Positions 1 through 1,791 of a DNA stretch of 64,000 bases are shown here, in pieces (within the stretch, counting starts at the first letter, position 1; each line of letters begins with the position of its first letter). Under the pieces are notes generated by a model. The model ran no database searches and was not told where the DNA came from. It saw nothing but the letters and a program-made list of their open reading frames with translations. Location: assembly GCA_022566735.1 (NCBI GenBank), contig JADFIG010000003.1:1-64000 (forward strand). Direction: 5' to 3'. This DNA comes from Pseudomonadota bacterium. Its GTDB lineage: Bacteria > Pseudomonadota > Gammaproteobacteria > Burkholderiales > Burkholderiaceae_C. Position numbers and translations under genes: made by a program.

Positions 1-216
1 GTTCCACTCGGGTTCGCCCGCGGTCAGCGTCGCATCCAGGTGGATATGCGGCTCGACCAGCGGCGGGATGACGAGATGGCTGCCCGCATCGATGACGTCG
101 TCCCCTTCAGACGTCAGCGGCGACGGCTGGAGATCGATGCCGCGAATCGTGCCCGCATCGATGTCGATCGTGAAGAGGCCGCTACGGCCGCGCAATCTGG
201 CGTTGATGATTTTCAT
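1..216 (-). CDS. codA: Cytosine deaminase, N-terminal fragment (runs off left edge)
   Basis: Cytosine deaminase converts cytosine to uracil and ammonia in pyrimidine salvage. The frame opens at an ATG at 216 and stays open for 72 codons to the window edge, so only the N terminus is present. Residues 54-61 read VEPHIHLD, whose two histidines (57, 59) are the first metal ligands of the amidohydrolase fold, after a typical beta-sandwich start (KIINARLRG). It lies 44 bases downstream of a codB tail on the same strand, the usual codBA order. Both belong to the foreign-looking first 1.1 kb. A different cytosine/isoguanine deaminase of the same superfamily is possible but less likely beside codB. 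Confidence 0.85.
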   Translation of the reverse strand, partial: MKIINARLRGRSGLFTIDIDAGTIRGIDLQPSPLTSEGDDVIDAGSHLVIPPLVEPHIHLDATLTAGEPEWN

Positions 217-260
217 GAGGATTCCTGTGGTTCGGGGGAGCGGGAGGGTGCGCAGCGGAA

Positions 261-737
261 TCATTCACCCTGAACGGACGGCTCGCGCGCGAACGCGCGG
301 GCAATCTGCAGCAGCACGATGTAGGCGCCGGCGGACGCCGCGATGCCGACGATCGGCGCGATCCACGGCGAGGTATAGGCGAGTCCGGCGCCGATGGCAT
401 ACGCGGCCAGGCCGACCAGGTTGAAGCGCGGAAGGCGGGCGGCGGCGAGCGACGGATATTGCCCGCGATGGCGATACCAGTAGTCCGCCATGATCACGCC
501 GCCGACCGGCGGAATGATCGAGCCGAGCAGCACCAGGAACGGAATCAGCCACGCGTACATCCCGCCGACCGCGAGCACGATGCCGATCGCCGCGCCCACG
601 AGTACGAGCGTGCGGCGCCGTTCGGTGCGCAGCAGATGGCATCCGGCGGCCGCCACGTTGTACATCGTCGGCCCCTGGATGGTCCAGAGATTGAGGCACA
701 GCATCACGACCGCCGCGATCGACAGGCCCTGCAGCAT
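261..737 (-). pseudogene. codB: Cytosine permease CodB, C-terminal fragment
   Basis: This is the last ~158 codons of an NCS1-family cytosine:H+ symporter. It has about four membrane segments, the NCS1-like stretch [13 protein letters not shown], and the typical tail before codA. The whole N-terminal two thirds is missing. The frame instead continues without a stop into a catalase-peroxidase N terminus (738-1037), giving one 258-codon open frame made of two unrelated proteins. As written it could not make a working transporter. The fusion is best explained as a sequence junction near 735-740 rather than as an evolved fusion. Confidence 0.85.
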
Positions 738-740
738 CAT
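735..740. other. Chimera junction 1 (katG / codB)
   Basis: On the minus strand the KatG-like peptide ends ...ADIVEVM and the CodB-like peptide starts at [11 protein letters not shown]. In intact KatG proteins this place is followed by the T(T/D)SQ-WWPAD stretch, which is absent. The codons at the switch are ATG ATG, a very short possible overlap. This marks an illegitimate join between two unrelated genes. Confidence 0.75.
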
Positions 741-1037
741 CACCTCGACGATGTCGGCGCGTAGGGAGTCGACATCAAGAGTCTTGACCTCTTCGGCGTA
801 GTCGTAATCGGGTCCCATCGGGTTGATGACGTCGGGATTGTGCTGCAGCACCTTGAGATTCGGCTGGTTGGGCCACCAGTCCCGGTTACCGCCGCCTTGC
901 ACGGGCGGCTTCATCACGGGGCACTGTGAGCCGTCCTGCTGCTCGTCGCGGAACCGGTCCAGCAGATTTGACCGCAGTTCTGACTCGGTCATGGTATTGA
1001 TTTCCTGGGTGGTCAATTTCTCGTCAGCCACGAGCAT
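738..1037 (-). pseudogene. katG: Catalase-peroxidase KatG, N-terminal fragment
   Basis: KatG is a heme enzyme that breaks down hydrogen peroxide. About 85-100 N-terminal residues are present, including [17 protein letters not shown] and [13 protein letters not shown], characteristic of the KatG start. The spacing and wording resemble actinobacterial (mycobacterial-type) KatG more than proteobacterial KatG, by recall of those sequences. The start may be the ATG at 1037, the GTG at 1031 (better spaced from an AAGGA at ~1040) or the ATG at 992. All heme-binding and catalytic residues lie in the missing part. A furA tail sits directly upstream, the furA-katG order known from mycobacteria. Confidence 0.8.
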
Positions 1038-1062
1038 TCCTTCCGGGTGAATCGAACCGTGA

Positions 1063-1143
1063 TCACGGTTGTGATCGCGAGGCTTGTGGGGTGGAACAGT
1101 CGGGGCAGGTGCCCCAGTAGACGACCTCGGCCTCGTCGAGCAC
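1063..1143 (-). pseudogene. furA: FurA-type peroxide regulator, C-terminal fragment
   Basis: About 26 codons ending at the stop at 1063-1065 read [16 protein letters not shown] and then a short Ser/Arg tail. This matches, by recall, the C terminus of mycobacterial FurA, the Zn/Fe-dependent repressor of katG; CPDC is the second zinc Cys pair of the Fur family. The upstream part of the frame is a DEAD-box helicase. The two share the peptide LDEA-acidic and so the codons over 1126-1143, which makes this overlap the likely crossover point. No Fur DNA-binding domain remains. Confidence 0.72.
1126..1143. other. Chimera junction 2 (helicase motif II / furA)
   Basis: The minus-strand codons for V-L-D-E-A-(E/D) fit both the helicase DEAD motif (VLDEAD) and the FurA C terminus (LDEAE). 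Left of this the sequence is FurA-KatG, right of it helicase. A shared stretch of about 15-17 bases of coding sequence is enough to explain a false overlap in assembly or template switching in library preparation. The long helicase tail expected after the DEAD motif is absent. Confidence 0.75.
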
Positions 1144-1791
1144 GACGTATTCGACCTGGCCCAGCTGGCAGTTCTTGGCCTCGATGTGGTCGAGCAGGCG
1201 GCCCGGCGTGGCGATCAGCACCTCGACGCCACCCTTGAGCTCGGCCGTCTGGGGCTTCATGTCCATGCCGCCGAACACCACGGCCACGCGCAGGTTCGTC
1301 TGCTTGGCGTAGGCCTTGACGTTGTTGGCGACCTGGTCGGCCAGCTCGCGGGTGGGCGCCAGCACCACGGCGCGCACCGGGTGACGGGCCGGCGACATGC
1401 TGGCGTTCTCGTGCTTGAGCATCTTCTGCAGCAGCGGGATCGAGAACGCGGCGGTCTTGCCGGTGCCGGTCTGCGCCGCGCCCATGACGTCACGGCCGGC
1501 CAGCACCACGGGGATGGCCTTGGCCTGGATGGGCGTCATCGTGGCGTAGCCCTGGGTGTCGATGGCGCGCAGCAGCTTGGCGTCGAGCGGCAGGGTGTCG
1601 AAGCGCGCGGGCGCCGGCGCGGCGACCTCCGCGGCGGGGGCGGCGGCGGCAGGAGCGGCAGCGGCCGGGGGGACAGACAAGGGAGCGGGCGTCACGGGGG
1701 TGTCGGCAGCCGGGGCGTTGCCGGCGGCTGCGGGCGCGGCCAGGTCGGCCTGGTCGGCCGGATCGGCCAGCAAGGAGGTTTGGTCATTCAT
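1129..1791 (-). pseudogene. DEAD-box RNA helicase (RhlE-like), truncated at motif II
   Basis: This is an ATP-dependent RNA helicase of the RhlE type, acting in RNA remodelling or ribosome assembly. The start is the ATG at 1791. Residues 1-63 form a low-complexity Ala/Pro-rich leader. Then come FDTLPLDAKLLRAI, a Q motif (about 79-93), motif I AQTGTGKT (106-113), Ia PTREL (146-150), Ib ATPGR (194-198) and the beginning of motif II VLDEA (217-221). Here the helicase ends and a FurA tail begins. Motifs III-VI and the whole second RecA domain, about half the protein, are missing. The gene is probably intact in the organism and cut only in this sequence. Confidence 0.85.

Follow-up and report, generated by a model that had tools for sequence, protein, structure and literature searches.

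The first 1137 or so bases of the window, by which we mean the whole stretch of 64,000 nucleotides that was analysed, most probably are a chimera of several species that the assembler produced at the end of a contig. That window 1-1137 is an artefact and not a real feature is strongly supported over a biological reading; there is nothing biological to infer from it, and it should be trimmed. The window consists of bases 1-64000 of contig C33 of the source genome G000 (JADFIG010000003.1; 221,520 bp), so its base 1 is a physical contig end. The source genome is a draft of 51 contigs, estimated to be 89% complete with 1.73% contamination. A preliminary description of this DNA had preferred misassembly or a library chimera to biology, and this preference agrees with the three unrelated sources, with the two joins placed in cut genes on shared sequence, and with the position at a contig end. 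The features at the window start are as follows:

1..216, minus strand: foreign 5′ portion of the cytosine deaminase gene codA, truncated by the contig start (NCBIfam PRK09230, E = 1.8e-18)
261..759, minus strand: foreign 3′ portion of the cytosine permease gene codB, certain as far as 736, with homology reaching 759 (NCBIfam PRK11017, E = 4.9e-64)
737..759, no strand: join 1, overlap of katG identity (start 737) and codB homology (end 759), with the crossover somewhere inside
737..1037, minus strand: 5′ part of katG, of Mycolicibacterium origin (1 mismatch, at 931, over 737-1137 against DAOUYK010000020.1; PRK15061, E = 2.6e-14)
1063..1137, minus strand: 3′ end of furA, of Mycolicibacterium origin (a FUR-family gene with a 171-aa frame lies just upstream of katG in DAOUYK010000020.1)
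1127..1137, no strand: join 2, an 11-bp stretch shared by furA (DEAE) and host rhlE (DEAD), from the alignment and from congener best matches starting at 1127
1127..1791, minus strand: N-terminal part of the host rhlE-type DEAD-box helicase, cut at the DEAD box (NCBIfam RhlE PRK10590, E = 3.2e-59)

Read on the minus strand from the host side, the order is rhlE, furA tail, katG start, codB tail and codA start, as placed by the NCBIfam matches and the comparison with Mycolicibacterium. Sequence searches assign the adjacent segments to different organisms, namely the host genus, Mycolicibacterium and a third lineage that carries codBA. Two fused frames are open on the minus strand: ORF 261-1037 (KatG-CodB, 258 aa) and ORF 1063-1791 (RhlE-FurA, 242 aa).

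The middle piece was traced by scanning the genome-contig collection with a 62-base katG pattern, which matched a single contig, DAOUYK010000020.1 (L004), of the Mycolicibacterium MAG CSMAG_925. Window 737-1137 and this contig are equal at 400 of 401 bases, the sole mismatch being at 931, and outside these limits identity falls to 37/137 immediately before 737 and to 41/137 immediately after 1137. The name CSMAG is present in the accessible text of a cold-seep genome catalogue assembled with MEGAHIT (PMC10491686). Directly before the katG frame, which extends past the stretch examined, DAOUYK010000020.1 carries a FUR-family gene (Pfam FUR, E = 2.2e-17). We take this gene to be furA. The mycobacterial furA-katG pair and the window are alike in gene order, protein ends and DNA, but the window has the furA tail and the katG start only and there is no such operon in this genome; neither a complete furA nor a complete katG, which a functional unit would comprise, was found at the window start in the comparison with DAOUYK010000020.1. 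The furA tail by itself (26 residues) matched no family in Pfam or NCBIfam. The mycobacterial assignment made in the preliminary description is borne out by the 400 of 401 equal bases; the content given earlier for 738-1143, a KatG start and a FurA tail, also stands (PRK15061 and the Mycolicibacterium match), whereas its limits move to 737-1137. A full-length katG of the host lies at G000:C37:45696-47837 (L056; 1196 bits to TIGR00198). Because the host has this gene of its own, the katG start in the window is a second, foreign copy.

The search with the helicase region covered 31 genomes: the window's own, 18 congeners and 12 further members of the order. Among the matches listed, the best helicase match begins at query base 28, which is window 1127, in 17 of the 18 congeners, while the 18th (82% complete) has shorter, weaker helicase matches only. 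No best match among those listed crosses 1127 in the congeners; the one match listed as starting 13 bases further left is weak (70%, E = 4.8e-5) and belongs to another helicase place in a congener (G003:C28). From 1127 onward rhlE is up to 91% identical to congeners, and the helicase gene is intact at this region in all three congeners that were read. Since the congener matches start there and the congener genes are intact, host sequence begins at 1127. The host base left of 1127, as found on contig C38, differs from the window, and furA identity ends at 1137. The window copy is like other RhlE-type DEAD-box RNA helicases in its N-terminal half, with the motifs up to DEAD, but is cut at the DEAD box by the mis-join, whereas the congeners have the gene intact. 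Two claims of the preliminary description hold here: the helicase is cut at its DEAD motif, as the PRK10590 match and the 17 congeners indicate, and the second join falls where both genes encode DEA plus an acidic residue (DEAE in furA, DEAD in rhlE, over 11 shared bp). A pattern across join 2 had 0 exact matches in the viral contigs, and a search of 72,556 plasmid records gave no place that spans 80% of window 1-1300.

The rest of the host gene lies near the end of another contig. With the C-terminal half from a congener as query in the window's own genome, the host rhlE C-terminal half was found at G000:C38:63605-64624 (81%; six other matches were weaker), 0.9 kb from the right end of C38 (65,527 bp). 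Up to the DEAD box it is 80.6-83.2% identical to three congeners and 77.3% identical to a fourth. A 19-bp tract is exactly shared by the two contigs, C38:64590-64608 being equal to window 1127-1145. Beyond this tract C38 continues with a helicase N-terminus unlike that of the host, its similarity to the congeners being limited to 80 bases at about 72%; a further partial frame then fills the contig to its end. Within this region (G000:C38:63604-65527, L059:3605-5528) the fused helicase frame is open, is 528 aa long, and has both Pfam helicase domains matched. From the two rhlE halves, which share the DEAD-box tract on both contigs, C33 and C38 are most simply explained as adjoining parts of the real genome that were separated within a single gene.

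The remaining ends of the two contigs were compared with five congeners. On the right side of C33 all five lose host similarity at L061:18475-18477 (about C33:219,997), inside a gene that is presumably of phoH type, and about 1.5 kb of run-on follows (C33:219998-221520; L061:18478-20000), beginning with a ferrochelatase-like fragment (Pfam E = 1.7e-7). At the left end of C38, host similarity appears only from L098:1640-1652 in 5/5 congeners, inside pilT (TIGR01420, E = 9.5e-26), and the outer part, C38:1-1640 (L098), holds a Wzy_C-type (O-antigen ligase-like) frame. A sharp loss of host similarity inside a gene is therefore seen at all four ends of C33 and C38, which are a nonrandom sample of the 102 contig ends and imply no genome-wide rate. 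The run-ons at the right end of C33 and at both ends of C38 are probably foreign.

The left limit of the Mycolicibacterium piece is broader than had been described. The codA start and codB tail assigned to 1-737 are both present by family (PRK09230, PRK11017), but codB does not end at 737, its homology reaching 759. A point-like first join at 737/738 is accordingly ruled out, codB homology and katG identity overlapping over 737-759. Because katG identity starts at 737 and codB homology ends at 759, the overlap is at most 23 bp. Mismatches to the window fall at 737 and 744 in six codB relatives, and in one of them also at 741, which leaves 745-759 (15 bp) unbroken; the actual codBA donor may match the window over all 23 bp. 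The heptapeptide ADIVEVM encoded at join 1 is found in KatG and in the codB loci of 9 of 13 relatives, with PDVVEVL or PDIVEVL in 3 of 13 and no motif printed for 1 of 13. In the nearest genus, codB is matched in 19 of 25 genomes at E <= 1e-90, and with a 760-base query each of these 19 alignments extends to 759; with a 780-base query codB homology still ends at 759 (6/6 relatives). The earlier view that the joins lie at tiny homologies suits the 11 bp of join 2, but join 1, at up to 23 bp, is not certainly tiny.

The closest codBA relatives found are 69-80% identical to the window piece. The best identity, 80%, was over the codB part, in searches of 398 genomes drawn from the phylum, 298 drawn from one family and 25 of the nearest genus; no donor candidate above about 80% was found in these three sets or in the plasmid collection. 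In one genus (g164), codB and codA in contiguous order align with window 1-736 at about 69-71%, which together with the NCBIfam matches supports the proteobacterial origin that had been proposed for codBA. Only short, weak matches to the codBA piece were found in a 399-genome draw of the host's own order. No plasmid record has a place covering 80% of the codB-codA piece; the plasmid matches are about 74-75% identical across a large part of codB, at most 76% in the codA part, and 80% over one 70-base stretch. There were 0 exact matches to the codB pattern in the viral contigs, and no second match to Transp_cyt_pur, the codB family, was found in genome G000. As in known codBA genes, the codB tail in the window is directly followed by the codA start; unlike in those genes, both are truncated. 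The search for closest relatives, which had been proposed for each piece, consequently succeeded for the middle (Mycolicibacterium) and the right (host genus), but not for the left, where the codBA donor was not found.

On our preferred reading, an error made by the assembler, the true host path would lead from the rhlE part on C33, which begins at window 1127, to its remainder on C38, and the assembler would have lost this path at the DEAD-box tract. C38 would have run on into what appears to be another organism's helicase, and C33 through the 11 bp of join 2 into the furA-katG of Mycolicibacterium and then, through up to 23 bp, into the codB-codA of a third organism. We infer that the error was computational and was not carried by a chimeric library molecule; the step at fault would have been a low-k traversal of the graph, the local extension of an end or the closing of a gap.

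The contig tips may carry traces of the assembly. When the 102 tips were compared, the terminal bases were identical over exactly 127 positions in 10 pairs, each pair being two contigs that start alike, and no end-to-end overlap of at least 12 bp was found. Scaffold ends from IDBA-UD and metaSPAdes are described, in the available text of one source, as often overlapping perfectly by n or n-1, where n is the largest k (PMC7111523). The shared 127-base tips suggest a multi-k de Bruijn assembly with a largest k near 127. In simulated random joins between host and Mycolicibacterium sequence, at least 11 bp were shared in 6 of 400,000 and at least 15 bp in none; between codBA relatives and Mycolicibacterium the corresponding counts were 5 of 400,000 and none. 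Because random joins so seldom share at least 11 bp, the joins appear to have been guided by shared sequence and not to be blunt random breaks. With k = 21, a graph can be misled by a tract of 21-23 bp but not by one of 11 bp; to our knowledge, 11 bp is shorter than the k values of any main graph. Since 11 bp cannot confuse the main graph, join 2 would need a gap-closing or a local low-k extension step. The gap closer of SPAdes works with a small minimum overlap, and MEGAHIT performs local assembly with small k. The portions of five papers that are available (PMC10491686, PMC8201837, PMC8172020, PMC7111523 and PMC6162917) contain no description of low-k end extension or small-overlap gap closing.

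Some points weigh against an assembler-made error: no codBA donor was found, the 127-bp tips are common starts and not end-to-end overlaps, composition does not single out the window start, and PMC8201837 and PMC7111523 call such misassemblies rare. The 11 bp of join 2 also supply a counterpoint, for this join needs either an extra assembler step or a real chimeric molecule. Such a molecule could arise in the library, when incomplete strands are primed on other templates via short 3′ homologies during PCR or whole-genome amplification, the rare products then being assembled faithfully into a low-coverage contig end. Short homologies at both joins (11 and up to 23 bp) suit template switching as well as they suit an assembler, and the k-mers of an ordinary main graph are longer than 11 bp. 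We nevertheless regard an origin in the library as unlikely. Host similarity drops abruptly at each of the four ends examined on C33 and C38, and both halves of one host gene are mis-joined at the same conserved tract, as expected of a branch in a graph. An assembly that probably used k = 127 would need several identical copies of a chimera with two switches. The chimeras of multiple displacement amplification, moreover, are described as mainly inversions in the available text of PMC6162917. That the other half of rhlE is equally mis-joined at the end of C38 favours an error in the assembly graph or in contig extension over template switching in the library.

It is hardly credible that horizontal transfer or rearrangement brought the fragments of codBA, furA-katG and rhlE together in the host chromosome. 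Nothing beyond the contig itself speaks for it, although the fused frames happen to be open. The pieces are gene fragments with no whole gene, no mobile-element family is among their Pfam and NCBIfam matches, and the near-identity to a different phylum extends over 401 bp only. The host has its own full katG on C37, and the missing half of rhlE lies at another contig's end, a split that contradicts real juxtaposition. Horizontal transfer was rejected on the fragments, the position of the other rhlE half and the host katG elsewhere. The mild composition changes at the window start might suggest that the whole of C33 was mis-binned from another organism, only the window start looking odd, but this is just as implausible, since rhlE from 1127 matches congeners at up to 91% and congener-matching DNA is found near the right end of C33 until the break there.

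The window start is an ordinary, if instructive, chimeric contig end. In the part of the text available for a mock-community assembly, chimeric sequence was always at contig ends (PMC8172020); misassembly is named as a source of chimeric contigs and called rare in the accessible text of PMC8201837, and such misassemblies are likewise called rare in that of PMC7111523. As far as these three sources are available, the chimeric contigs and metagenome misassemblies that they describe resemble the present one in having fragments of different organisms in one contig, and differ from it in that here two successive foreign pieces occur, together with a partner contig of the broken gene that has its own run-on. 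Tentatively, and with the odds against it, the tract lengths of the joins (11 and, if the donor matches, 23 bp) could be a fingerprint of a particular low-k end-extension step in a multi-k assembler. In that case foreign run-ons would be present at many contig ends of published draft genomes, and some would take the form of open, credible-looking fusion genes like the 528-aa two-source helicase of C38.

Because the fused frames at the ends of C33 and C38 are open, automatic annotation could be misled into passing them for real fusion genes or gene transfers, and the contamination estimate of 1.73% gives no hint of chimeric ends. At least C33:1-1126, about C38:64609-65527, about C33:219998-221520 and about C38:1-1640 should be distrusted.

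Composition, which the preliminary description had suggested comparing, did not single out the window start: in a scan of all 102 contig tips this end was not flagged (z about -2.0). Strongly atypical composition was seen in the outer 1-1.5 kb of several tips, for example C2 left, C40 right and C16 right, which could be further run-ons, repeats or islands; since repeats, rRNA and islands also produce atypical tips, no count of chimeric tips is drawn from the scan. Contig C5 (G000:C5:1-1180, L066) starts inside a 16S rRNA gene, covering model positions 1-1184 of 1533, and is an ordinary end caused by a repeat.
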